Origin: Advenella alkanexedens | GTDB taxonomy: Bacteria; Pseudomonadota; Gammaproteobacteria; Burkholderiales; Burkholderiaceae_B | Assembly (NCBI RefSeq): GCF_019132845.1 | Contig: NZ_JAHSPR010000003.1 | Location: forward strand, 62,001 to 126,000 | Direction: 5' to 3' | Length of the DNA: 64,000 nucleotides | In this document: one piece after another, positions 2,778 to 57,337 of the stretch | Numbering within the stretch: position 1 is the first letter of the stretch | Layout: each line of letters begins with the position of its first letter | Translations under genes and position numbers: made by a program | The notes under the pieces: model-generated | Seen by the model: only the letters and a program-made list of their open reading frames with translations | The model's database searches: none | What the model was told of the DNA's origin: nothing

Positions 2778-4487
2778 ATGTCACAGGAAAGCCTGATCAA
2801 TGCCCAGACCAGCATTGATGAATATCTCAGCCAAGCCGACTGGCGTGTTAACGCCAATGCCAACCAGGGTTACTCGTTGGGCGGCCTGATTCTGAACATT
2901 TCGGGCAAAATGATTGCCACCTACTGGCTTAACCACATTTATCCACCTGAAGTCGGCCAGGCCCACCGTGATGCTGACTTGCACATCCATGACCTGGACA
3001 TGCTTTCCGGCTACTGTGCCGGCTGGTCACTGCGTACCCTGCTGAACGAAGGGCTGAATGGCGTTCCCGGCAAAGTGGAGTCTTCCCCGCCCAAACACAT
3101 GTCCAGCGCGATCGGGCAAATTGTGAATTTTTTGGGTACCCTGCAAAATGAATGGGCCGGCGCCCAGGCTTTCAGCTCTTTCGACACCTACATGGCACCC
3201 TATGTCCGGGTCGACAAACTTGACTACCCCACCGTCAGGCAATACATGCAGGAACTCATCTATAACCTGAACGTGCCTTCACGCTGGGGTACGCAAACCC
3301 CTTTTACCAACCTGACTTTTGACTGGGTCTGCCCCGAAGACCTGCGCGAACAAACGCCGGTTATCGCCGGTAAGGAAATGCCGTTTTACTATGGCGACCT
3401 GCAAACCGAAATGGACATGATTAACCGCGCCTACATTGAAATCATGATGCAGGGCGATGAAAAAGGCCGGGTCTTCACCTTTCCGATTCCCACCTATAAC
3501 ATTACCGAAGACTTCGACTGGCACAGCCCCAACGCCGAACTGATGTTTGAAATGACCGCCAAATATGGCCTGCCGTATTTCCAGAATTTCATTAATTCCG
3601 AACTCAAGCCCAATATGATCCGCTCCATGTGCTGCCGCCTGCAGCTGGACCTGCGCGAACTGCTCAAGCGGGGCAATGGCCTGTTCGGTTCGGCGGAACA
3701 AACCGGTTCCCTGGGTGTGGTTACCATTAACTGCGCCCGCCTTGGCTACCAATATGCCGGCAATGAAGCCGCCCTGTTTAAGCGGCTGGACGAACTAATG
3801 GAACTGGGCAAAACCAGCCTGGAACTGAAGCGCACGGAAATCCAGAAACACATGGATAACGGCCTGTTTCCCTACACCAAACGTTACCTGGGCACCCTGC
3901 GCAACCACTTTTCAACCCTGGGGGTGAATGGCATTAATGAAATGATCCGCAACTTCACTCATGACGAACATGATATTACGTCTGAATGGGGGCATGACTT
4001 CGCCATCCGCCTGCTGGATCATATCCGCGCCAAAATGCTGGTTTTCCAGGAAGAAACCGGCCATATGTACAACCTGGAAGCCACCCCTGCCGAAGGCACC
4101 ACCTACCGTTTTGCCAAAGAAGACCGCAAGCGCTTTCCCGGCATTTTACAGGCGGGCACGACCGACATGCCCTATTACACCAACTCATCCCAGCTGCCGG
4201 TGGGTTTCACCGACGACCCCTTCGAGGCACTGGAAAGGCAAGACGACCTGCAACGCAAATACACTGGCGGCACCGTTTTGCACCTGTACATGACCGACCC
4301 GCTTTCCACGGCGGATGCCTGCCGCAACCTGGTCAGGCGCGCCCTAAGCCGCTTTCATTTGCCTTACATCACCGTGACGCCCACGTTTTCCATTTGCCCC
4401 AAGCACGGCTACCTGGGCGGAAGCCATAAATTCTGCCCGAAATGCGACGATGAACTGATTCAGAAAAAACTGAAAGAAGCCGCATAG
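2778..4487 (+). CDS. nrdD: anaerobic (class III) ribonucleoside-triphosphate reductase, catalytic chain without glycyl-radical domain
   Basis: 569 residues. The class III RNR 10-stranded barrel is recognisable from NANANQGYS, DADLHIHDLDML, LGTLQNEWAGAQAFSSFDTYMAP, SMCCRLQLDLREL (active-site Cys region) and the C-terminal zinc ribbon CPKHGYLGGSHKFCPKCDDE. There is no N-terminal ATP-cone: the protein begins almost directly with the catalytic fold. The usual C-terminal R-x-x-G-Y glycyl-radical segment is absent, because the chain stops after the zinc ribbon; that segment is encoded by the next ORF (4544-4723). AAGGA precedes the ATG. Predicted to reduce ribonucleotides anaerobically once the radical is generated by NrdG. 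Expression is probably under NrdR and perhaps an FNR-type factor. Confidence 0.92.
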   Translation: MSQESLINAQTSIDEYLSQADWRVNANANQGYSLGGLILNISGKMIATYWLNHIYPPEVGQAHRDADLHIHDLDMLSGYCAGWSLRTLLNEGLNGVPGKVESSPPKHMSSAIGQIVNFLGTLQNEWAGAQAFSSFDTYMAPYVRVDKLDYPTVRQYMQELIYNLNVPSRWGTQTPFTNLTFDWVCPEDLREQTPVIAGKEMPFYYGDLQTEMDMINRAYIEIMMQGDEKGRVFTFPIPTYNITEDFDWHSPNAELMFEMTAKYGLPYFQNFINSELKPNMIRSMCCRLQLDLRELLKRGNGLFGSAEQTGSLGVVTINCARLGYQYAGNEAALFKRLDELMELGKTSLELKRTEIQKHMDNGLFPYTKRYLGTLRNHFSTLGVNGINEMIRNFTHDEHDITSEWGHDFAIRLLDHIRAKMLVFQEETGHMYNLEATPAEGTTYRFAKEDRKRFPGILQAGTTDMPYYTNSSQLPVGFTDDPFEALERQDDLQRKYTGGTVLHLYMTDPLSTADACRNLVRRALSRFHLPYITVTPTFSICPKHGYLGGSHKFCPKCDDELIQKKLKEAA

Positions 4488-4543
4488 ATCCATTTAACCC
4501 AAACCAGCCCAATCCAAACAAATTTAATCTTAAAGGAATAGAA

Positions 4544-4723
4544 ATGAAAAATACCCTCATGAACAAACCTGCAAATATCACACTGAGCGACGACGAGCGC
4601 CAGCCATGCGAAATCTGGACCCGGGTCATGGGCTACCACCGCCCGGTTTCTTCATTCAATATTGGCAAAAAAGGCGAATTTCATGAAAGAAAATACTTCA
4701 GCGAAAAAGAGGCCCGCCTTTGA
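4544..4723 (+). CDS. separate glycyl-radical domain of class III RNR (59 aa)
   Basis: A 59-codon ORF in a different frame from nrdD, 56 bases after its stop, with its own ribosome-binding site (AAAGGA). It contains RVMGYHRPVSSFNIGKKGEF followed by HERKYF. This corresponds to the RVxGYxRPVxxxNxGKxxEf.xR segment that ends normal NrdD chains and carries the radical glycine (here Gly30). Together with the truncated-looking NrdD it supplies a complete enzyme, so I infer a two-chain NrdD. The spacing, the SD sequence and the TTGA overlap with nrdG argue for a real gene rather than a sequencing frameshift. Confidence 0.8.
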   Translation: MKNTLMNKPANITLSDDERQPCEIWTRVMGYHRPVSSFNIGKKGEFHERKYFSEKEARL

Positions 4724-5442
4724 TTCCTGACGCAGCACCCGTTTCTTCACTCAGGGTTGGGGGCATGACCCCCTTCAGCACCTCGGACTACCCTGGCCAG
4801 ATGGCCGCCGTGCTTTTTGTGCAAGGCTGCCCCTGGCGTTGCGGTTACTGCCATAACCCGCATTTGCAGGAACGGGGAACCGACACCCCCCTGGACTGGG
4901 GCGACATCATGACATTCCTGCAGCGGCGTGCCGGCCTGATTGATGCCGTGGTATTCAGTGGTGGTGAACCCACCATCGACCCGGCCCTGGAAAATGCCAT
5001 GCAACAGGTAAAGACACTTGGTTATAAAATCGGCCTGCACTGCGCGGGCATTTACCCTCGACGGCTCAAAGAAGTGCTGCCACTGGTGGACTGGGTGGGT
5101 CTGGATATCAAGGCCACATTCAACAAGTACGCCCATATCACGCAATTTGCCGGCAGTGGTGACCAGGCCCTGGCCTGTTTACAGGCAGTGCTGGCCAGCG
5201 GGGTCGACTACGAACTGCGCACCACCCTGCACCCCCTGCTGCTACCCGAAGAAGACTTATTGGAACTGGCCAGAAGCCTGGCCAAAATGAAGGTGAATAA
5301 TTATGTCTGGCAACTGTTTCGTGACCAGGGTTGCAACGATGCCGTCCTGAACAATGCCAGTCTGGCAGGATACCCGTCTGAATCACTGGTTGAGCAGGTA
5401 TCGGCCATGTTTACGCGCTTTACGTTAAAGAAGAATGCCTAG
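4720..5442 (+). CDS. nrdG: anaerobic RNR-activating radical SAM protein
   Basis: The radical SAM cluster motif CPWRCGYCHNPH (CxxxCxxC) lies near residue 35, followed by VFSGGEPTIDP and DIKATFNKY, typical of NrdG-type activases. It loads the glycyl radical using S-adenosylmethionine and a 4Fe-4S cluster. The best coupled start is TTG at 4720, which overlaps the stop of the 59-codon glycyl-radical gene (TTGA); AAGAGG lies just upstream. An ATG at 4765 would trim 15 residues. The coding end overlaps convergent ubiT by 23 bases. At 240 residues it belongs to the longer NrdG-like group. Confidence 0.9.
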   Translation: MIPDAAPVSSLRVGGMTPFSTSDYPGQMAAVLFVQGCPWRCGYCHNPHLQERGTDTPLDWGDIMTFLQRRAGLIDAVVFSGGEPTIDPALENAMQQVKTLGYKIGLHCAGIYPRRLKEVLPLVDWVGLDIKATFNKYAHITQFAGSGDQALACLQAVLASGVDYELRTTLHPLLLPEEDLLELARSLAKMKVNNYVWQLFRDQGCNDAVLNNASLAGYPSESLVEQVSAMFTRFTLKKNA

Positions 5443-5929
5443 CATCATTATCATTGGCAGGCTTGACCAGCCGGCCAATGATTTGCATGCCGGGCAGTTT
5501 TTTTAATACCTGCTCGGGCGACAGCACCGATAAATCAATGCCATCCAGCGTGTTTTTAACCATCAGGCCCAGCTCGGTATCGCCTTCTATCATCATGCGA
5601 CGGCTGAAAAAAAGAGTATCAGGATCTTCCTTGCGCTGTATCATCTGCCAATAATCATATAAGCTTGAAGAAATGATCAGGTCGGGCTCATCAGGATGCC
5701 TGCCACAGGCCACAAACGCACGGTTGCGCCAGCTATAGTCAAAAGCAATGCCGGCATCTTTTACCACCAGGCGCAATTTTTTCTCTTCAAGACGGGCCAG
5801 TACATCTTCGGGCAAATGCTTTTTCAATAACAGGTTAAGCCCGTTGACAAAGAAAAACGTGCCGGGATAAGACGGCAGTTTTGAAAAAACCGTTTTTACA
5901 AACGGTGGAAGCAAAAAAGGCTTGTCCAT
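5420..5929 (-). CDS. ubiT: O2-independent ubiquinone biosynthesis accessory factor UbiT (SCP2 domain)
   Basis: 169 residues with an SCP2-like lipid-binding domain: LVVKDAGIAFDYSW, PDLIISSSLYDYWQMI and DPDTLFFSRRMMIEGDTELGLMVKN, the last of which is the UbiT/YhbT hallmark. UbiT is a soluble isoprenoid-binding factor that acts with UbiU and UbiV in ubiquinone synthesis without oxygen. GGAGAAATAGT precedes the ATG. It lies downstream of ubiV and ubiU on the same strand, separated from ubiV by a repeat block and a duplicated ubiV tail, so it may be less tightly coupled than usual. Confidence 0.9.
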   Translation of the reverse strand: MDKPFLLPPFVKTVFSKLPSYPGTFFFVNGLNLLLKKHLPEDVLARLEEKKLRLVVKDAGIAFDYSWRNRAFVACGRHPDEPDLIISSSLYDYWQMIQRKEDPDTLFFSRRMMIEGDTELGLMVKNTLDGIDLSVLSPEQVLKKLPGMQIIGRLVKPANDNDARHSSLT

Positions 5930-5943
5930 ACTATTTCTCCAAA

Positions 5944-6049
5944 AATGGCTTAAGCTGCCACCTGTTCAAGGCCCGGCTTGCCATGCCAATAGCCATTGCA
6001 GCCTTTTTCAGGCATCAAGGGTTCAATCTGTGCCATGGCACTGGCCACA
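5944..6049 (-). pseudogene. duplicated 3' end of ubiV
   Basis: About 106 bases aligning at an exact offset of 250 with 6194-6299, the 3' end of ubiV. It encodes the same last 32 residues (ending KGCNGYWHGKPGLEQVAA and a stop) with one amino-acid change, although eight codons differ. It has no start codon of its own in this context and is separated from ubiV by three palindromic repeat units. Confidence 0.85.
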
Positions 6050-6067
6050 TCAAGGCGACTGTTTCTC

Positions 6068-6183
6068 GTTCCCACGCGCTTGCATGGGAATGCATCTGGT
6101 GGTATTTGTTTCTTTTCTCGTTCCCACGCTCCTGCGTGGGAATGCATATGGTGGTGTATATTCCCACGCAGGAGCGTGGGAAC
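6068..6183. repeat. three REP-like palindromic repeat units
   Basis: Unit 1 is 6068-6095 (GTTCCCACGCGCTTGCATGG core, degenerate). Unit 2 is 6120-6147, the same orientation with a perfect TTCCCACGCTCCTGCGTGGG core. Unit 3 is 6160-6183 in inverted orientation. Units 1 and 2 share the flanks CTCG and AATGCAT. The block lies exactly between the two copies of the ubiV 3' end. Confidence 0.8.
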
Positions 6184-6199
6184 AAGGGTCAATAATGGC

Positions 6200-7087
6200 T
6201 TACGCCGCCACCTGTTCAAGCCCCGGCTTGCCATGCCAGTAGCCATTGCAGCCTTTTTCAGGCATTAAAGGTTCAATTTGTGCCATGGCATCGGCCACAC
6301 TCATGCGGTGATTAATAACGGCATCATACAGCTCAACAATTCTGTCGGTATCGCGCCATTGCGGGCTGATCCGGACAATATCCACGCCCGTTTCACGCAT
6401 GCTGTCAATGTCCGCCAACAGGTTATACACCAGCGCCGACTGGGTTTGTATACCGTTAAGCACCAGGAAAGGCTGGCTTTCACGGGTTTTCATCATGAGG
6501 CCATCGGGGTGTTCCATACACACGTACTGGCAATTGTCTTTGGGCAGATTGCGGTTGCGGGCGGTAAAACAGCGGGCTGAAAAGGCCAGTGGCAAACGGC
6601 CGTAGGCAAACACTTCGGTTTCTACCGGAAACTGTTTTTCGGCCAGAATGCTGGCCAGGCCGGCCTGCCCCATTTCCAGCGGCATCACCCAGCGCCTGGC
6701 CCCCTGTTTGACCAGCAACTCAAGGGATGGCGTACTGAACAGGTTTAAAAAAGGACCCGCCACAAAACCTTGCCCTTGCAGGCAATGCACTGCGCCCATG
6801 TCATTGGCTTCCACCATGAACATGTCATTGGTGGCAATTTTTCTTAGGGTTTTAAGGTCGCTTTCGCCTTCCAGCAAGGTTTGCGTGGACAAAACCACTT
6901 CTTTTCCACACGCTTTCAGGTCTTTCGCAATATCCAGCCAGTCGGGCAGGCGCAGTTCATGGCGGCGCGAACAGACCGTTTCCCCAAGATACACGATTTG
7001 TGCGGCGCTTTCGGCCATTTTTCCGTAAAAAGACACGACTTCATTGCGTGACCAGTAATACTGTATGGGTCCCAGTGCGATTTTCAC
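6200..7087 (-). CDS. ubiV: O2-independent ubiquinone biosynthesis protein UbiV (U32 peptidase-like)
   Basis: U32-family protein of about 295 residues. Cysteines at ETVCSRRHEL, SARCF and DNCQYVC fit the four ligands of the 4Fe-4S cluster known in UbiV. It forms a heterodimer with UbiU that hydroxylates the quinone ring without oxygen. The best start is GTG at 7087 (MKIALGPIQYYWSR), preceded by AAAGG at a good distance; a TTG 18 bases upstream is less likely. It lies 36 bases after ubiU. Its last 106 bases are duplicated downstream at 5944-6049. Confidence 0.92.
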   Translation of the reverse strand: MKIALGPIQYYWSRNEVVSFYGKMAESAAQIVYLGETVCSRRHELRLPDWLDIAKDLKACGKEVVLSTQTLLEGESDLKTLRKIATNDMFMVEANDMGAVHCLQGQGFVAGPFLNLFSTPSLELLVKQGARRWVMPLEMGQAGLASILAEKQFPVETEVFAYGRLPLAFSARCFTARNRNLPKDNCQYVCMEHPDGLMMKTRESQPFLVLNGIQTQSALVYNLLADIDSMRETGVDIVRISPQWRDTDRIVELYDAVINHRMSVADAMAQIEPLMPEKGCNGYWHGKPGLEQVAA

Positions 7088-7123
7088 AAGAATACCTTTA
7101 TGCAAATATATTTGATAATTGAA

Positions 7124-8176
7124 CTATTTCCAGGGACGACTATAGGCACCCAAGGTATGCTGCTGCCCTTCAGCCACTTTATTCAGGCTGGCCATCCATT
7201 CGGGCCTGACTGAATAGCGTTGCGCCTGGGACAGGCAGTTGTCAATTGCCTGGCGCCATACCTTGGTGACCTGGCCCACATAGGCCGGACTGCGCTGGCG
7301 ACCTTCAATTTTGATGCCACGCACGCCCAGCTGCACCAGTCGGGGCAAAATTTCCAGCGTATTCAGGCTGGTGGGTTCTTCAATGGCATAATAATTTTCA
7401 TCTTCAACATCAAACCGGCCTTTGCACAAGGTGGGGTAACCGGCATTTTCATTATCGCCATAGCGGTCAATCAGCACACCGTTAAGACGTGACTCAAGCC
7501 CCTTGGGGGTTTGTTGCCAGCGCACCGCCTTGGCCGGCGAACACACGCCATGCGTATTGGGTGATTCGCCCGTGACATAAGAAGAAAGGGCACAACGCCC
7601 TTCCACCATGACGCACAGGCTGCCAAAACCGAAGACTTCTATTTCCACCGTGGTGCTTTCTGCCACCCTCTCTACCTGGGCCAGCGAAAGCACCCGTGGC
7701 AAAATAACCCGCGTAATGCCAAACTGCTGCTGGTAATAAGCAATCGCCTCGTAATTGGTGGCCGAGCCCTGTACCGACAAATGCCGGTGCAGATCAGGAT
7801 ATTTATCAGCCGCGTAAGCCATTAAACCCAGATCGCCCATAATAAGGGCATCTGCCCCCATGCCGGCAGCATGGTCGATGGCTTGTGTCCATAAGCCGGC
7901 GCTGCCGGGCTGGGGATACGTATTAAGGGCGACAAACACCCGGCAACCGCGTGCATGAGCGTAGCTGATCCCTTCGCGTATGGCGGCATCATCAAAATTA
8001 AGCCCGGCAAAATTGCGGGCATTGGTGGCATCCCGGAACCCCAGATAGACACAGTCTGCACCGTTATCCACGGCATTTTTCAGGGCGGGCAGGCTGCCGG
8101 CCGGACACACCAACTCTATGACAGGCTGCGCGGATTCTGGCTGGCCATGACCGTTAATTGACATAAAACTTGACAT
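7124..8176 (-). CDS. ubiU: O2-independent ubiquinone biosynthesis protein UbiU (U32 peptidase-like)
   Basis: 350 residues beginning with ELVCPAGSLPALKNAVDNGA, the classical U32 start. It continues with VFGFGSLCVMVEGRCALSSY, HGVCSPA and TLCKGRF, giving the set of cysteines expected to bind the 4Fe-4S cluster. It is the partner of UbiV. This is the first gene of the ubiU-ubiV-ubiT group. The promoter lies in 8177-8387 and carries an FNR-type box centred about 42 bases upstream of the start site implied by a TATATT -10 sequence. An ATG at 8164 is an alternative start. Confidence 0.92.
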   Translation of the reverse strand: MSSFMSINGHGQPESAQPVIELVCPAGSLPALKNAVDNGADCVYLGFRDATNARNFAGLNFDDAAIREGISYAHARGCRVFVALNTYPQPGSAGLWTQAIDHAAGMGADALIMGDLGLMAYAADKYPDLHRHLSVQGSATNYEAIAYYQQQFGITRVILPRVLSLAQVERVAESTTVEIEVFGFGSLCVMVEGRCALSSYVTGESPNTHGVCSPAKAVRWQQTPKGLESRLNGVLIDRYGDNENAGYPTLCKGRFDVEDENYYAIEEPTSLNTLEILPRLVQLGVRGIKIEGRQRSPAYVGQVTKVWRQAIDNCLSQAQRYSVRPEWMASLNKVAEGQQHTLGAYSRPWK

Positions 8177-37780: not shown

Positions 37781-39313
37781 ATGAAAAAAATTTCAGCACT
37801 TATTTTACTGGCAGCGACGCTATTACAGCACGCATGGTCTCAAACCATCTCGCAAACTTACAATTTTGTTTCCTGCAAATCCGCTGTCATAGCTAACCCA
37901 TGCCCGGACACCTTGGAAAAACCCTCATTAACCCCGGGTACCGGCAATCCCGCTTACCTAATCACAGGTAGCAGGTCCCGCTTTTGTGATATCCGATCGT
38001 GGCTTACCGGAAGCAAGTTGCAAATTGTACATGCAGACGGCTTACGCAATCAGGTCGTTGAACAAACATTCGCCAACGGCAATCATGCCCTTCTGGAGTA
38101 TGACGAAACAGGTTACCTGAGAACGGTAACCGAAACGTCAAAACGAAAAGAACCCCCAATCATTACAAAATTAGGGGGCACCGCAGATTTCGGATGGGTC
38201 TTGATAAAGTCTCCAAAAGAGAGCCTTACTTTTGATTCACGACAAGAAAATACGCTATATGTAGAGTCTTATCGAAACAGAAACGAACATTCTGATGTCA
38301 AAGCAATTCTGACAGATAAATATACATTTGAAAAACCCAATCGAGCACGTATTCATCATCTGCCTGAAGGCGGCTCTATTACTTATTTGCATGACAAAAA
38401 CAACAAACCCGAAACCATCATCTGGACCGAGCAGTCGGGTAAGCAATCTCACCTGATTCTTGACTCTCATACATTTGGCAAAGGCTATTTGCTGGGTAAC
38501 AAACTTCAATTTCATGCTTTAAAAACCGAACAGGGGCAAACACAGCTCAGTTTATGGGATGAAAAGCAGAAACGAATATGGAGCCAACTGCTTAATTTTT
38601 CAGAAAACAACACCCTAATCAATGAAACCGTAATGGTACCGCAGGTCGACTATCAATCCACGCAATCCTATGTGTATGACCCGCGCAAAAGAATGGTGAA
38701 CGCCACGATACAGGCTCATCAAAAGAAACAGGACCTTTCCACTCAATATCATTATGCCTGGAATGACAATGGTTCAAATGCCGCATATTCCAATGGATCC
38801 GAAAGTATTATTTCGAACATAGAACGCGATGCCAGTGGTCTGCCGCTCAAGATTAACGACTTTGTACTTAAATATGGCGCCAACCAGCGGTTGAAATACG
38901 TTGAACTTGATAAGGAACTACTTGCTGAATATATTTATAACGGTATAGGGCAAAGAATTATAAAAAAAACCAAAGACACACATACCCATTACTACTACGA
39001 AAACAACCTGCTGGCTGGAGAATGGACAACACGTAAGGGAAAACGCGCCGAGCATGGACCAAACGGGGGTATTGACCGCCGCTACATTTATGCAGGCCAG
39101 TTACCTGTTGCTTTCATTGAGTACGAGCGTGCCTCTTTCAATATTGACGATCCATTGAATGACTCCTTCATGGATTATGACGCCGATACCTTCAACCCAA
39201 TCAAAAAGCCGCAACTTCGACCCTATAAGGCAAAGCTGTATTTTATTCATTCCGACCATATCGGCCAACCATTCATGGTGACCGACAGCCACGCCTGCTT
39301 ACCAACCCGCTAG
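37781..39313 (+). CDS. RHS-repeat deletion derivative lacking core and tip, copy B
   Basis: 510 residues with a signal peptide (KKISALILLAATLLQHAWSQ). Compared with copies A and C, the N-terminal region has lost about 30 residues after LITGS and then some 330 residues between ADG and VVEQTFANG, both in frame. It proceeds through repeats to YFIHSDHIGQPFMVTD and then stops after eight unrelated residues (SHACLPTR). The RHS core domain and any toxin tip are therefore missing. It may be a non-functional remnant that is still open, or a secreted shell fragment. Confidence 0.7.
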   Translation: MKKISALILLAATLLQHAWSQTISQTYNFVSCKSAVIANPCPDTLEKPSLTPGTGNPAYLITGSRSRFCDIRSWLTGSKLQIVHADGLRNQVVEQTFANGNHALLEYDETGYLRTVTETSKRKEPPIITKLGGTADFGWVLIKSPKESLTFDSRQENTLYVESYRNRNEHSDVKAILTDKYTFEKPNRARIHHLPEGGSITYLHDKNNKPETIIWTEQSGKQSHLILDSHTFGKGYLLGNKLQFHALKTEQGQTQLSLWDEKQKRIWSQLLNFSENNTLINETVMVPQVDYQSTQSYVYDPRKRMVNATIQAHQKKQDLSTQYHYAWNDNGSNAAYSNGSESIISNIERDASGLPLKINDFVLKYGANQRLKYVELDKELLAEYIYNGIGQRIIKKTKDTHTHYYYENNLLAGEWTTRKGKRAEHGPNGGIDRRYIYAGQLPVAFIEYERASFNIDDPLNDSFMDYDADTFNPIKKPQLRPYKAKLYFIHSDHIGQPFMVTDSHACLPTR

Positions 39314-51483: not shown

Positions 51484-52537
51484 CGACAAACCGTACAACA
51501 CCATCGCTACCGGTTTCCCGCTTTAGCTTGCCGTCAAAATACAAGGCGTGCAAATGTGCCAGCGCCTCGCCCATGGCAAAGGTTAGCTGGTGCAAATCCA
51601 GCTCACGCCTGAACATATGCGGCACCACATCCTTGGTACTCATGGGCTGCTGGCATAATTCCAGCACTTCGGCCAGACGCTCGGCATGATGCTCGTGCTG
51701 CTGGCGAATCCGCTCATGCAGGCCCTTGAACGGGCGACCATGCGAAGGCAACACCAGGGTATCTTCATCAAGCGCCAGATACTTATCCAATGATTTCAAA
51801 TACAAAGGCAGGGGATTGCCATCGGGCTCATGATCAAACACACTCACATTGGTTGAAATGCGTGGCAAGACCATATCGCCCGAAATCAGAACCTTCAGCA
51901 CAGGACTGTACAAAGCCATATGCTCGGGTGCATGCCCATAACCTGAAATGAGTTGCCAGTCGTTGTTGCCAATCCGCAGGGTATCGCCATCCATCAGGCG
52001 GCAAAAACGGTTGGGAGGGGTACAAACCAGGCCTGGGTAATAGGTGGCCCGGGCACGGATTTTTTCCTGGGAATCGGGGTCTGTCAGGCCATGGCGTGAA
52101 AAATGCCGTACCGCCACATCGCCCCCCGTTCCCGCGCCACCCACCGGTTGCGATGACCACATGCGTGAAACGTAATAATCGGTCATGCTCATATACAGAG
52201 GCACATCAAACTTCTCGCACAACCAGCCCGCCAGGCCAACGTGGTCGGGATGCATATGGGTGACCACCACCCTCAGCACGGGCAGGCCATCCAGTTCATT
52301 CCTGAATACCTCTTCCCACAAATCCTTGACCGGGTCTTTGGCAATGCCGCAATCCACAATCGTCCAGCCCTTTTGCCCGTTGACTTCATCGGCCAGCAAC
52401 CATAAATTGATATGGTCCAGCGCAAACGGCAAAGGCATGCGTATCCATTTGACTCCCGGTGCCACCTCGATTGCAAACCCCGGCTCTGGCTGTGTGTTAC
52501 CCAAGGGGTAAATCAGCTTTGCTTCGTTCACATTCAT
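51476..52537 (-). CDS. MBL-fold metallo-hydrolase
   Basis: 353 residues. VTHMHPDHVGLAGWLC is the HxHxDH metal site, and GYGHAPEHMALYSP, SGDMVLPRI and LPSHGRPFKGLHERI complete a glyoxalase-II-like beta-lactamase fold. A C-terminal helical domain follows (VPHMFRRELDLHQLTFAMGEALAHL). AGGAG stands before the ATG. It is divergent from the LiuR-type regulator, with the regulator's operator between them, so it may belong to the same regulon, possibly as a thioesterase-like enzyme (inference). Confidence 0.85.
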   Translation of the reverse strand: MNVNEAKLIYPLGNTQPEPGFAIEVAPGVKWIRMPLPFALDHINLWLLADEVNGQKGWTIVDCGIAKDPVKDLWEEVFRNELDGLPVLRVVVTHMHPDHVGLAGWLCEKFDVPLYMSMTDYYVSRMWSSQPVGGAGTGGDVAVRHFSRHGLTDPDSQEKIRARATYYPGLVCTPPNRFCRLMDGDTLRIGNNDWQLISGYGHAPEHMALYSPVLKVLISGDMVLPRISTNVSVFDHEPDGNPLPLYLKSLDKYLALDEDTLVLPSHGRPFKGLHERIRQQHEHHAERLAEVLELCQQPMSTKDVVPHMFRRELDLHQLTFAMGEALAHLHALYFDGKLKRETGSDGVVRFVVI

Positions 52538-52580
52538 TATTTCTCCTTATTGACTTTTATATTTAATTCATGGATCATAC

Positions 52581-52602
52581 TTTACGTTTACGTAAACTGT
52601 AA
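52581..52602. promoter_or_regulatory. LiuR-type operator between hydrolase and regulator
   Basis: TTTACGTTTACGTAAACTGTAA contains the perfect palindrome GTTTACGTAAAC (52586-52597). The same core recurs before ivd at 53007-53023, which supports autoregulation. Confidence 0.65.
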
Positions 52603-52617
52603 GTATTAGAATCAATT

Positions 52618-53010
52618 ATGACACAAAGAACATGGTCCATATCGGAATTGGCGCAGGAATTCAATATAACGCCGCGCACTTTACGATTTTATGAAGACCA
52701 CGGTATTATCAACCCCAGGCGCGAAGGCCAAAAACGCATTTATACGCAAAAAGACAAAACGCGCCTGAAGCTGGCCCTGCGTGGCAAGCGGCTGGGTTTC
52801 CAGCTGGCCGACATCAGCAGCCTGATTGACATGTATGATGGCCCCGGCAGCACCGCCCCCCAGCTCAAACAATACATTGCCATGCTTAACCGGCACAAAG
52901 AGCAGCTTGAAAGCCAAAAACGCGATCTTGAAGCCATCCTGCAGGAAATCCACAACCAGGAGGAACACTGCATTGGGTTGCTAAAAAAACACGAGCAAAA
53001 CCAATCTTGA
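52618..53010 (+). CDS. liuR: MerR family regulator of leucine/isovalerate catabolism (LiuR-like)
   Basis: 130 residues. MerR winged helix WSISELAQEFNITPRTLRFYEDHGIINPRR and a coiled-coil dimer helix; the C-terminus has one Cys but no metal cluster, as in LiuR. It lies before ivd and the carboxylase genes and probably represses them until isovaleryl-CoA type inducers appear. Its stop codon lies inside the second operator. Confidence 0.88.
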   Translation: MTQRTWSISELAQEFNITPRTLRFYEDHGIINPRREGQKRIYTQKDKTRLKLALRGKRLGFQLADISSLIDMYDGPGSTAPQLKQYIAMLNRHKEQLESQKRDLEAILQEIHNQEEHCIGLLKKHEQNQS

Positions 53011-53023
53011 CGTTAACGTAAAC
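53007..53023. promoter_or_regulatory. LiuR-type operator before ivd
   Basis: TTGACGTTAACGTAAAC with perfect core ACGTTAACGT. It overlaps the last bases of the regulator gene and lies about 70 bases before ivd. Confidence 0.7.
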
Positions 53024-53091
53024 GGAATATCTTATTTCTGTTATATTTCATAGATATAATGTAAAGAAAAAACTCACAGGAGACAAACATC

Positions 53092-54270
53092 ATGAATTTA
53101 CCCGGACTGAATTTCGACTTGGGCGAAGACCTGGACATGCTGCGCGATGCCGTGCGTACTTTTGCCCAGGCAGAAATTGCACCCCGTGCCCAGGAAGTTG
53201 ACCGCAGCGACCAGTTTCCCATGGACCTATGGAAAAAATTCGGCGACCTGGGCCTGCTGGGCCTCACTGTTGGCGAAGAATACGGTGGCACCAATCTGGG
53301 TTACCTGGCACACATGATTGCCATGGAAGAACTGTCCCGTGCCAGTGCCGCCATTGCCCTTTCCTATGGGGCCCATTCAAACCTGTGCGTCAACCAGCTT
53401 AACCGCAACGGTACCGAGGCGCAAAAACAAAAATACCTGCCCAAACTCATTAGCGGAGAACATATTGGTGCCCTGGCCATGAGCGAGCCGGGCGCCGGTT
53501 CCGACGTCGTCAGCATGAAACTGCGCGCCGAGAAAAAAGGCGACAAATACATCCTGAACGGCAGCAAAATGTGGATTACCAACGGCCCTGATGCCGATAC
53601 CCTGGTTGTCTATGCCAAAACAGATCCGGAAGCCCACCAGCGCGGCATTACCGCTTTCATTATCGAAAAGGGCTTCAAGGGTTTTTCAGTGGCGCAAAAA
53701 CTGGACAAAATGGGCATGCGGGGCAGCCACACCGGTGAGCTGGTGTTTGACAACTGTGAAGTACCCGAAGAAAACATCCTGGGTGAACTGAACGGCGGGG
53801 TCAGGGTCCTCATGAGCGGACTGGACTATGAACGCGCCGTGCTGGCCGGCGGCCCGCTGGGCATCATGCAGGGTGTCATGGACATAGTAGTGCCTTACAC
53901 GCATGACCGCAAACAGTTTGGCCAGTCTATTGGTGAGTTCCAGCTGATCCAGGGCAAAGTGGCCGATATGTACACTACCCTGCAGGCCAGCCGCGCCTTT
54001 TGCTACACCGTTGGTAAAAACCTGGATCGCCTGGGCAGCAGCCATGTCCGCGAAGTGCGCAAAGATTGCGCGGCCGTTATTTTGTACTGCGCTGAAAAAG
54101 CCACCTGGATGGCCGGTGAAGGCATTCAAATCCTGGGCGGTAACGGTTACATTAACGAATATCCCACCGGCCGCATGTGGCGGGATGCCAAGCTTTATGA
54201 AATTGGTGCCGGCACCAGTGAAATCCGTCGCATGCTCATTGGTCGGGAACTGTTCAATGAAACAAAATAA
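53092..54270 (+). CDS. ivd: isovaleryl-CoA dehydrogenase
   Basis: 392 residues, acyl-CoA dehydrogenase fold. [21 protein letters not shown] and [16 protein letters not shown] bind flavin, and the catalytic base sits in [16 protein letters not shown], the position characteristic of isovaleryl-CoA dehydrogenase rather than the C-terminal Glu of other family members. It performs the third step of leucine breakdown. AGGAGAC precedes the ATG. First gene of the LiuR-regulated operon. Confidence 0.94.
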
Positions 54271-54308
54271 AGCAATAATAGGGTTTTAAATACTTGTCAC
54301 ATAATGTC

Positions 54309-56156
54309 ATGACTTATAACGCCGATCATCAACTCATCCAACAACTGGACAAAACCCTTCCACCTCCGGGAGAAGTGGCGCAAAAAATCCTGGCAGGGTT
54401 TGATCGGCATTACTCCCTGTTCCGCTATGTGGCCCAGCGTGCCAAGTCCCTGTTTGAATCACACGACTGGCACGGCATACAGCGGGTCTCCAAAGAGCGG
54501 ATCGAATACTATGACACCCGGGTGCGCGAATGCACCTACCAGATCAATAACATGCTCAACAAGACCCAGGGCATGCCACAAGAAAAGCACGGAGACCTGA
54601 CGCCGGAACAAATCAACTACTGGCAGTCGATCAAACAGGAATATGTCCGCCTGCTGACCAACCACCAGCAGCCCGAATGCGCTGAAACGTTTTTCAACTC
54701 GGTCACCTGCCGGATCCTGCACCGTGATTACTTTCACAATGCTTTTCTGTTCGTGCGCCCGGCCATTGCCACCGAATACCTGGACTCAGAACATCAGTCT
54801 TACCGCGTGTATTACCCACACATTGACGGCATTGAAAAATCCATCATCAAAATGGTGGCCGATTACGGCCTGGCATCCCCCTTCAAGAACCTGCCTTACG
54901 ATGCCCGAAAAGTGGCCCGCAGAGCCATTGGTCTTTTGCGCCAGAAATTAATCAAAAGCGGTGGCAAGCGTATTGCCCCCGATTGCCAGATCCACGTCCT
55001 GAACACCCTGTTCTTTCGCAACAAGGGTGCTTATATTGTGGGGCGCTTCATTAATAACAATATTGTCTACCCGTTTGGCATCCCGCTACTGCACACGCCC
55101 GCCAACGAAATTGAACTGGATGCTTTCTTAAGCACCACCGATGACATCAGTACCCTGTTCAGCTTTACCCGCGCCTACTTTCTGGTCGACATGGAAGTGC
55201 CTTCGGCCTATGTGGCGTTTTTGTCGTCTCTGCTGCCCAGCAAACCCAAAGCCGAACTGTACACCGCCATCGGTCTGCAAAAACAGGGCAAAACCCTTTT
55301 TTACCGTGACTTCCTGTATCACCTGAACAACTCGCACGACCAGTTTGACATCGCGCCCGGGATTAAGGGCATGGTCATGACGGTGTTCACGCTGCCTTCT
55401 TACCCGTATGTCTTCAAGCTCATCCGCGACCGCATCAATAAAGACGGCATGACCCATGAAATCGTGAGAAAAAAATATCACATGGTCAAGATGCATGACC
55501 GGGTTGGCCGCATGGCCGATACCTGGGAATACTCGCTGGTAGCCCTGCCGCGCAAGCGCTGCTCACCCGCACTGCTCGAAGAATTGCGCAGCCAGGTACC
55601 CAGTCTGATAGAAGAGACCGAAGACAGTATCGTGATTCGCCACGTCTACATCGAACGACGCATGACGCCACTGAACATCTTCCTGAGTCAGGCCAATGAT
55701 GAAGCCCTGGACAATGCCATCAAAGGCTATGGTGACGCCATTGCCGAGCTGGCGGCGGCCAATATTTTTGCTGGCGATATGCTGTTCAAGAACTTTGGTG
55801 TAACCCGCCTGGGCCGGATCGTCTTCTATGACTATGATGAAATCCAGCCCATGCGCGAAATGAACTTCCGTGCCATTCCGCCGGCCCCCAACGAAGAGGC
55901 CGAGATGTCAGGTGAGCCCTGGTATCCAATACATCCCAACGATGTCTTTCCCGAAGAATTCGAACGCTTCCTGCTGGGCAATCCACGCGTACGTGCCGCC
56001 TTCATGAAGCACCACCCGCATTTGCTCGATTATAAATGGTGGCAAACACGCAAAGATCGTGTCGCTGCCGGCAAGATCGAGGATATTTTCCCTTATCCGT
56101 TCTCGCGTCGCCTGCATGTCAGTCGGCCTGAACTTACCAACCAAAAGGAATTGTAA
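54309..56156 (+). CDS. aceK: isocitrate dehydrogenase kinase/phosphatase
   Basis: About 615 residues with AceK hallmarks: YSLFRYVAQRAKSLFESHDW near the start, YPHIDGIEKSIIKMVADYGL in the regulatory domain, and the kinase core with VMTVFTLPSYPYVFKLIRD and DMLFKNFGVTRLGRIVFYDYDEI. It switches isocitrate dehydrogenase off when acetyl-CoA-type carbon is used, favouring the glyoxylate shunt. It sits within the leucine-degradation operon, a sensible location since that pathway yields acetyl-CoA. The start is ambiguous: TTG 54294 or ATG 54309. Confidence 0.94.
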   Translation: MTYNADHQLIQQLDKTLPPPGEVAQKILAGFDRHYSLFRYVAQRAKSLFESHDWHGIQRVSKERIEYYDTRVRECTYQINNMLNKTQGMPQEKHGDLTPEQINYWQSIKQEYVRLLTNHQQPECAETFFNSVTCRILHRDYFHNAFLFVRPAIATEYLDSEHQSYRVYYPHIDGIEKSIIKMVADYGLASPFKNLPYDARKVARRAIGLLRQKLIKSGGKRIAPDCQIHVLNTLFFRNKGAYIVGRFINNNIVYPFGIPLLHTPANEIELDAFLSTTDDISTLFSFTRAYFLVDMEVPSAYVAFLSSLLPSKPKAELYTAIGLQKQGKTLFYRDFLYHLNNSHDQFDIAPGIKGMVMTVFTLPSYPYVFKLIRDRINKDGMTHEIVRKKYHMVKMHDRVGRMADTWEYSLVALPRKRCSPALLEELRSQVPSLIEETEDSIVIRHVYIERRMTPLNIFLSQANDEALDNAIKGYGDAIAELAAANIFAGDMLFKNFGVTRLGRIVFYDYDEIQPMREMNFRAIPPAPNEEAEMSGEPWYPIHPNDVFPEEFERFLLGNPRVRAAFMKHHPHLLDYKWWQTRKDRVAAGKIEDIFPYPFSRRLHVSRPELTNQKEL

Positions 56157-57337
56157 TGTCTGATCCTATCGTAATCGTTTCCGTTGCCCGTACCCCCATG
56201 GGCGGCATGATGGGTAGCCTGTCACCCTTGGCCGCCAACCAGCTGGGTGCTGTTGCCATTAAAAGCGCGGTTGAGCGCGCCGGCATCAAGCCCGAGGCTG
56301 TTCAGGAAGTCATTATGGGTAACGTGCTGCAGGCGGGCCAGGGCCAGGCGCCCGCACGCCAGGCCGCTTTGGGTGCCGGTCTGCCCAAAAGCGTTTCCTG
56401 CACCACCATTCATAAAGTATGCGGATCAGGCATGAAAGCCGCCATGTTTGCCCACGACATGCTGGCAGCCGGCTCTATTGACGTTGCCGTTGCCGGTGGC
56501 CAGGAAAGCATGAGTAATGCACCTTACCTGTTGCTCAAGGGGCGCCAGGGTTACCGCTACGGTCACTCTACCGTTTACGACCACATGGCCATGGACGGCC
56601 TGGAAGACGCTTACCAGCGCGGTACCGCCATGGGCGTGTTTGCCGAGCTATGTGCCGACAAATACAGCTTCAGCCGTGAAGAACAGGATGCATTTTCGAT
56701 TGAATCCCTGCGTCGCGCCAAGCAGGCCGTTGAAGATGGCAGCTTCGAATGGGAAATTGCCCCGGTCACCATTGAAGACCGTCGTGGTAACACGGTTGTC
56801 AGCATTGACGAAGCGCCCGGTAAAGCCAAGCCGGAAAAAATCCCGACACTGCGCCCCGCCTTCAAGAAAGACGGTAGCGTCACCGCCGCCAACTCATCTT
56901 CCATCTCTGACGGTGCAGCAGCCATGGTGCTGATGCGCACCTCTACCGCTGAGGAGCTGGATGTAAAACCCCTGGCAAAAATTGTCGGTCAGGCCCAGCA
57001 CTCCCAAGAACCGGAATGGTTTACCACCGCCCCCGTTGGTGCCATTGAGAAATTGCTGAAAAAAGTCGGCTGGACCAAAGACGACGTGGATCTGTATGAA
57101 ATTAACGAAGCCTTTGCGGTTGTTACCATGGCTGCCATGAAAGAGCTCAATCTGGATCACGCCAAAGTCAACATTCACGGTGGCGCAACCGCCCTGGGTC
57201 ACCCCATTGGCGCATCAGGTGCCCGTATTATTACCACCCTGATCGGTGCACTGCGTAAAACAGGCGGCAAGCGTGGTATTGCCACACTGTGTATTGGTGG
57301 TGGCGAAGCCGTTGCCGTCGCCATTGAAATGCTTTAA
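56156..57337 (+). CDS. acetyl-CoA C-acetyltransferase (thiolase)
   Basis: 393 residues, full thiolase: catalytic Cys in TTIHKVCGSGMKAAMFA, His in GGATALGHPIGASGARI, and the C-terminal Cys in LCIGGGEAVAVA. It interconverts acetoacetyl-CoA and acetyl-CoA, the end of leucine degradation. ATG overlaps the aceK stop by one base (TAATG). Confidence 0.95.
   Translation: MSDPIVIVSVARTPMGGMMGSLSPLAANQLGAVAIKSAVERAGIKPEAVQEVIMGNVLQAGQGQAPARQAALGAGLPKSVSCTTIHKVCGSGMKAAMFAHDMLAAGSIDVAVAGGQESMSNAPYLLLKGRQGYRYGHSTVYDHMAMDGLEDAYQRGTAMGVFAELCADKYSFSREEQDAFSIESLRRAKQAVEDGSFEWEIAPVTIEDRRGNTVVSIDEAPGKAKPEKIPTLRPAFKKDGSVTAANSSSISDGAAAMVLMRTSTAEELDVKPLAKIVGQAQHSQEPEWFTTAPVGAIEKLLKKVGWTKDDVDLYEINEAFAVVTMAAMKELNLDHAKVNIHGGATALGHPIGASGARIITTLIGALRKTGGKRGIATLCIGGGEAVAVAIEML

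Follow-up and report, generated by a model that had tools for sequence, protein, structure and literature searches.

A separately encoded 59-residue glycyl-radical protein as the probable second chain of a class III ribonucleotide reductase in Advenella alkanexedens and its relatives

Our analysis of the window, a stretch of 64,000 nucleotides from Advenella alkanexedens, identified a class III ribonucleotide reductase (RNR) whose catalytic chain, NrdD, ends without a radical-glycine segment, and a separate 59-codon gene between nrdD and nrdG that encodes this segment. We consider it highly probable that the two proteins form an obligate two-chain enzyme, in which the 59 amino acid subunit (hereafter GRD, for glycyl-radical subunit) carries a glycyl radical charged by NrdG. 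Enzymes of this class provide DNA precursors when oxygen is absent, and their radical part is sensitive to oxygen. In published accounts of glycyl radical enzymes, the catalytic chain itself bears the radical. The case for two chains is built on sequence, which shows the split itself, its conservation, the unlinking of the genes in one genome and the lack, in the source genome, of a further glycine domain that could serve NrdD. The split is not peculiar to this strain, and a separate glycyl-radical protein is a design common in proteobacteria. In the literature searched, to which Siedow 1999 and Wei 2014 did not belong, we recognised no description of a detached NrdD glycyl-radical domain.

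The three genes lie consecutively on the plus strand, in the order nrdD, 59-codon ORF and nrdG. The first of them, nrdD (2778..4487), encodes a class III RNR catalytic subunit of 569 amino acids that lacks the radical-glycine C-terminus and ends in ...CPKHGYLGGSHKFCPKCDDELIQKKLKEAA, directly past the zinc ribbon. Its stop codon is followed, after 56 bases and in a different frame, by the ATG of the GRD gene (4544..4723), with a likely ribosome-binding site, AAAGGA (4532..4537), six bases 5' of this ATG. The GRD gene, assigned from profile matches and relatives, encodes a 59 amino acid protein (RVMGYHRPVSSFNIGKKGEF), in which Gly30 (codon 4631..4633), within the motif RVMGY, is by alignment the radical glycine. 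The stop of the GRD gene and the start of nrdG (4720..5442) share the bases TTGA, with TTG at 4720-4722 and TGA at 4721-4723. NrdG is a radical-SAM activase (TIGR02495, 194 bits against a cut-off of 131.15), and its TTG start at 4720 appears plausible, since the next in-frame ATG, GTG or TTG is an ATG within the TIGR02495-matched stretch, which begins at residue 13. The first-pass annotation of this DNA had described an NrdD that stops past the zinc ribbon, a 59-codon ORF in another frame with its own Shine-Dalgarno sequence, and a TTGA overlap with nrdG; the coordinates, the frames and the start are as it claimed, and the overlap is present in the sequence.

Profile searches divided a single family model between the two proteins. 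PF13597 matched NrdD over profile positions 2-531 (581.4 bits, above the curated cut-off) and the 59 amino acid protein over positions 530-562 (32.2 bits against a curated cut-off of 26.2); the small ORF begins in the profile where the NrdD match stops, and both together fill one profile. NCBIfam models of full-length NrdD divide between the two ORFs likewise. These matches confirm two earlier proposals, namely that NrdD ends without the radical segment and that the small ORF is the missing piece. PF13597 was the sole Pfam match of the 59 amino acid protein up to E = 1, and a PDB sequence search with this protein gave no match up to E = 1. Profile searches of the source genome (99.5% complete) found no additional PF13597 piece and no PFL-type glycyl radical domain (PF01228), and one class I/II-type RNR catalytic subunit is encoded elsewhere in this genome.

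In other respects the system has the features of class III: the barrel fold and the family profile; the finger-loop motif M284-C285-C286-R287 (3627..3638, plus strand), invariant among 29 aligned NrdDs; a C-terminal zinc ribbon of Cys540, His543, Cys553 and Cys556 (4395..4445, plus strand), all invariant columns and assigned by homology; and an NrdG activase encoded alongside, its TIGR02495 match above the cut-off. The radical glycine lies in the next ORF and not in the same chain, and we therefore regard the system as a two-chain variant and not as a standard class III member. Finger loops with a double cysteine and a leading Met have been reported (PMC9669993), and the class III RNR of Neisseria bacilliformis (Wei 2014, as described in papers citing it) has the double-cysteine loop SCCR, compared with MCCR in the window. 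One-chain NrdDs (T4, T. maritima, P. copri and S. thermophilus) share with the window the fold, the zinc ribbon, the finger-loop cysteine, NrdG and the radical-loop sequence, but carry the radical glycine in the catalytic chain instead of in a separate 59 amino acid protein. The split class II RNR NrdJa/NrdJb also has its catalytic chain in two proteins; however, it belongs to another class and, in the account given in PMC9669993, its detached part carries no glycyl radical.

The AF2 model of the window NrdD (pLDDT 82.5) matched solved NrdD structures at Z of 27-31, with alignments that, 8p23 excepted, spanned the barrel and the zinc ribbon only. Against T. maritima NrdD, whose radical glycine is Gly621 (PMC4493059), the alignment ended at 609-611 in five entries and at 589 in a sixth; against T4 NrdD, whose radical glycine is Gly580 (PMC2795772), it ended at 568-576. 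The exception, 8p23 (P. copri), reached 716, beyond Gly711, at model residue 541 within the zinc ribbon, and we take this row as an apparent slip of the alignment end. The AF2 model of a naturally fused chlamydial chain (L063; pLDDT 80.9, pTM 0.83, from an alignment of 47 rows) matched solved NrdDs at Z of 27-32 and reached 633-646 of T. maritima NrdD (4coj, 4coi, 4u3e), beyond Gly621. Since the alignments of the window model stop before the radical glycine and those of the fused chain pass it, the window NrdD is, as modelled, a complete catalytic chain minus the radical loop. The glycyl-radical domain of P. copri NrdD is disordered with dATP (PMC11226230) and is mobile even as part of the same chain. 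It should be noted that the window NrdD is N-terminally shorter by about 110 residues (569 against approximately 667-690 amino acids in many split relatives, counted from first-ATG starts), as if it lacked an ATP-cone.

Relatives of the 59 amino acid protein were found in 17 of 61 genomes, source genome included, and in at least 574 stretches of the GTDB collection, of which the best 80 were taken; together with four plasmids, these gave 101 loci that were read, the window locus among them. The arrangement was split in 93, called fused in three, and without an NrdD in the stretch fetched in five, where the ranking of the 80 GTDB loci by similarity to the split GRD biases the count toward the split form. 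Two of the fused loci were deemed sound (L063, Simkaniaceae, and L101, an Acidithiobacillus plasmid), and the third (L025, Massilia sp. H-1) is a doubtful call, as its match to NrdD is broken into pieces and includes a stop. Two surveys with PF13597, which overlap in some genomes, were not ranked by similarity to the split GRD. At class level, the family was present in 39 of 370 genomes (30 split, 7 one-chain, 2 partial); at phylum level, in 66 of 397 (17 split, 48 one-chain, 1 weak), with one of the 17 split genomes (G648) carrying its GRD in frame with two stops between. The one-chain form is thus commoner than the split form in the phylum sample (48 of 66 NrdD-bearing genomes). Thirty of these 48 genomes belong to three families (f193, f194 and f201), whose one-chain loci that were read end in RVCGYLGSPDARPFN. 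Split NrdD and GRD occur across many genera and several phyla, and the question posed at first pass, whether relatives keep the parts split or fused, is answered mostly in favour of split, both among the 101 loci and among the 39 class-sample genomes with the family. In RefSeq, plasmids from C. necator H16, Bradyrhizobium and Sulfuricurvum have the small gene annotated as 'nrdD' and the large one as 'ribonucleoside triphosphate reductase', and other records matched by the GRD search have no gene annotated at the place of the small ORF. One further locus (L031) has a GRD without an NrdD within 1.7 kb upstream.

The spacing of the two genes bears on whether their products could be joined. Counted over 88 distinct split loci, the frame of the GRD relative to the NrdD stop is the same in 24, +1 in 28 and +2 in 36, and the gap ranges from -41 to 191 bases, with 12 loci overlapping; all three frames and such a range of gaps are incompatible with a single frameshift mechanism. 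A ribosome-binding box precedes an ATG in 88 of the 88 loci, a count biased upward by the choice of the start from the presence of a box, compared with 92 of 640 random ATGs. In one genome (G043; L141 2497-13898, G043:C4), GRD-nrdG and nrdD are approximately 8-9 kb apart and are separated by genes on the opposite strand, a Crp-type regulator among them. Judging from this gene order, the small protein must act in trans in G043, since the genes are unlinked and one ribosome passage over both is impossible. In principle the two ORFs could be joined through a programmed frameshift, readthrough of the stop, or splicing at the RNA or protein level, as phage nrdD genes with introns or inteins are known (PMC3653736, PMC12363816) and this clade, too, has an insertion that looks like an intein; however, the three frames and the variable gaps, the unlinked genes of G043 and, in the window, a 56-base gap with its own box and ATG make such joining very improbable. 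The insertion, of about 300 residues, is found in the NrdD of L299 (G186:C2) and also in G432, begins with CVDAETECLTDRGWRRYDEITAGDRIL after NVPSRWGTQ and looks intein-like by eye. At the protein level, a Cys five residues before RVMGY is present in 96 of 96 distinct bacterial windows, a count in which the Cys lay within one search pattern and RVMGY with its Gly was required, so that the Gly is uninformative there.

YfiD/GrcA and T4 Y06I, which are spare parts of pyruvate formate-lyase, resemble the GRD in being small stand-alone glycyl-radical domains (PMC8683613), and the first-pass annotation had likened the 59-residue protein to YfiD. As worded, this comparison is not supported: YfiD/GrcA repairs its partner and duplicates a domain that this partner has, whereas the window NrdD lacks that domain and the genome holds the GRD as its single PF13597 glycine-domain piece. 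With no intact chain to repair, the small protein, though similar to YfiD in the way it would work, would here be an obligate subunit and no spare part. The YfiD/GrcA domain family, which we take to be PF01228, also differs from PF13597, the only Pfam family that the GRD matches up to E = 1. A small size and a stand-alone gene might also suit a YfiD-like part that serves a different glycyl radical enzyme and is no NrdD subunit, yet only NrdD models match it in Pfam and NCBIfam, the genome lacks a PF01228 domain and the gene sits between nrdD and nrdG, and we give this reading hardly any weight. What stands of the original proposal is the idea of an enzyme made of two chains, the smaller of which bears the radical; the conserved split, the three frames, the separate starts and the unlinked genome all speak for it. 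Finally, a gene broken in this strain or a sequencing error, with fused chains as the rule elsewhere, would agree with the one-chain NrdD seen in the solved structures and in most NrdD-bearing genomes of the phylum sample, but it is refuted by relatives with the same split, including L002 of the same genus (identical GRD), L003 (93% identity) and many other genera, and we regard it as virtually impossible in this clade, where 93 of 101 loci are split.

In the two-chain enzyme that we favour, the 569 amino acid NrdD would supply the barrel, the finger-loop cysteines and the zinc ribbon, and the 59 amino acid GRD would supply the radical loop, which elsewhere is the C-terminus of the same NrdD chain. 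Both proteins would be translated separately and meet in trans. NrdG would then charge Gly30, most likely once the GRD has docked where the NrdD barrel is open, and from Gly30 the radical would move on to the cysteine of the finger loop, just as it does in one-chain enzymes; docking, activation by NrdG and catalysis are steps that we infer. A plausible gain would be that oxygen cleavage at the glycyl radical costs one replaceable part of 59 residues. An indirect lead in vivo may come from C. necator H16, in which NrdDG is reported to be essential for complete denitrification (PMC2864759). Plasmid pHG1 of this strain encodes a split NrdD and carries a large chain, nrdD and nrdG in the same three-gene order as the window, with a 66 amino acid gene annotated nrdD (RefSeq) and a large chain of 676 amino acids compared with 569 for the window NrdD. 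Literature on P. aeruginosa refers to nrdDG. If the two-chain reading is correct, gene tables in which nrdD is paired with nrdG only are, for many proteobacteria, short of a third gene that is essential, and the separation of the parts would allow radical installation, docking and oxygen damage to be studied on separately purified proteins.

The NrdD tree (66 rows, midpoint root; the chosen rows L057 and L039 are absent) contains one group of 56 split rows and six fused rows. The fused chains L063 (97/84) and L101 (86/94) are nested among split rows, a position that suggests two or more events of re-joining; the remaining fused rows in this group, four in number, sit on long branches and their placement is unsure. 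The split or fused label changes four times on the tree, three of them forced by well-supported branches, with the caution that the long branches L151, L173, L100 and L149 may join falsely and that the bootstrap is unsettled.

Three genomes carry, besides an nrdD-linked GRD, a second and solitary GRD on another contig. In Magnetospirillum fulvum (G061; L142 7610-11223, G061:C27), it immediately precedes the class I genes nrdA and nrdB. In BMS3Bbin13 (G062; L143 4134-13573, G062:C3), it lies in a prophage-like stretch with RecT and YqaJ, which also encodes a ribonucleotide reductase barrel protein. In Sutterella UBA1442 (G063; C90:7692-9515, C42, C68), a one-chain NrdD match (1-560) occurs together with a split NrdD and GRDs, the split NrdD being in two ORFs with its own GRD and the further GRD being solitary. 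In the class survey, a second GRD was found in one of the 30 split genomes, and the match places are those of G062.

Solitary GRDs are also frequent in viral records, and in the same literature searched, again exclusive of Siedow 1999 and Wei 2014, we recognised no description of them. An IMG/VR scan with the 59 amino acid protein, which used the radical motif, gave 146 relatives; around the best 80 of these (up to 8 kb each side), 79 stretches were without NrdD, and no NrdG was found in any. Among 50 records of this first scan searched whole, 49 had a GRD piece only, 12 had a PF03237 terminase and one had a class I/II RNR. A repeat scan used a pattern that lies after the glycine and omits it; 80 loci were read of at least 120 matching contigs, 27 contigs being shared with the first set. 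The glycine at the radical position was present in 78 of these 80, the exceptions being L335, which looks unrelated, and L357, which lacks the glycine. From the 53 new contigs, 43 were searched whole: 35 had a GRD alone, five a full-length NrdD, one (G878, the L348 record, 51820-56881) an NrdD in two match pieces with a GRD 2.8 kb away, one (G882) an NrdD without a recognised GRD, and one no match. In total, 84 of 93 whole viral records have a GRD without NrdD, where 11 of the 84 GRDs fall below the Pfam cut-off (E 1e-6 or better) and where IMG/VR records, given without completeness, are possibly fragments, such that a phage NrdD could lie beyond the record. A PHROGs scan of the neighbours at 10 loci found head-tail genes in five (L184, L233, L235, L242 and L254), replication genes in L207 and L213, an integrase in L191 and L195, and only a family of unknown function in L180; L180, L207 and L254 each come from a record that also encodes a PF03237 terminase, and the GRD of L213 is flanked by a DNA polymerase and a clamp loader. 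The best PHROGs match of the GRDs themselves is phrog_4132, listed as of unknown function, with the GRD at about 113-159 of its 179 profile positions. In named phages, tblastn gave two matches from two of three queries and none from the third, one being a full-length fused NrdD and the other lying beneath a feature annotated NrdD. The best bacterial matches of viral GRDs (55-88% identity) single out no host.

By analogy, the spare-part idea seems to suit these solitary phage GRDs better than the window GRD, and T4 Y06I is likewise described as phage-borne. We lean slightly toward the view that the radical subunit, as a part that can be detached, is traded, and that phage GRDs (roughly 45-90 residues) refill or repair host NrdD during replication. 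Some phage copies (L301, L320, L336 and L377 among them) look by eye like the GRD of one-chain NrdDs, where such proteins might be true spare parts. Were this correct, the phage GRD would be to NrdD what the T4 spare part is to pyruvate formate-lyase; spare parts for other glycyl radical enzymes are held possible in PMC8683613, with none proven as that source has it, and with solitary phage GRDs the question can be put to a direct test in the synthesis of DNA precursors. It is also conceivable, if rather unlikely, that these solitary phage proteins do not work as radical subunits and are instead remnants, or decoys with a dominant-negative effect: partial copies can give rise to inhibitors, and the conserved Cys is replaced among 62 distinct viral windows by Val in five, Thr in one and Ala in one. 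Against this, 78 of the 80 loci matched by the pattern without the glycine nevertheless retain it, and silent changes exceed amino-acid changes and predominate in several pairs, with pS 0.74 and pN 0.04 for the pair L182/L183 and a median pN/pS of 0.42 over 170 of 1953 pairs with pS 0.05-0.6, all from a stretch anchored at the motif. Moreover, the viral GRD ORFs are compact, many with a purine-rich box 5' of the start, and lie beside phage replication, head-tail or integration genes.

A conserved small protein adjoins the viral GRD in L182 (7592-7999) and ten other loci (-1 in 8 of 11, +1 in 3 of 11). Separately, a CxC or CC occurs close to the GRD C-terminus in 11 of 178 GRDs, of which seven are among 98 bacterial (L010, L075, L077, L084, L089, L092 and L097) and four among 80 viral (L181, L183, L191 and L200), and recalls the pair of cysteines at the C-terminus of class I/II RNRs.

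Upstream of nrdD, the window has two NrdR-box-like sites on the plus strand (2716-2731 and 2747-2762), 31 bases apart and with three mismatches each to what we take to be the NrdR-box consensus. Compared with an expectation of 0.59, the window contains three such matches, the remaining one at 38252, and 2 of 100 shuffles reach three. FNR-type sites in the window number four, where 2.9 are expected; one, at 2668-2681, lies upstream of nrdD. Three terminator-like sites in 4380-4860 (0.7 expected), of which the two on the plus strand lie inside the GRD gene and nrdG, are given no weight. Downstream, the neighbours on the minus strand (5420-8176) resemble UbiT, UbiV and UbiU, presumably of anaerobic ubiquinone synthesis.
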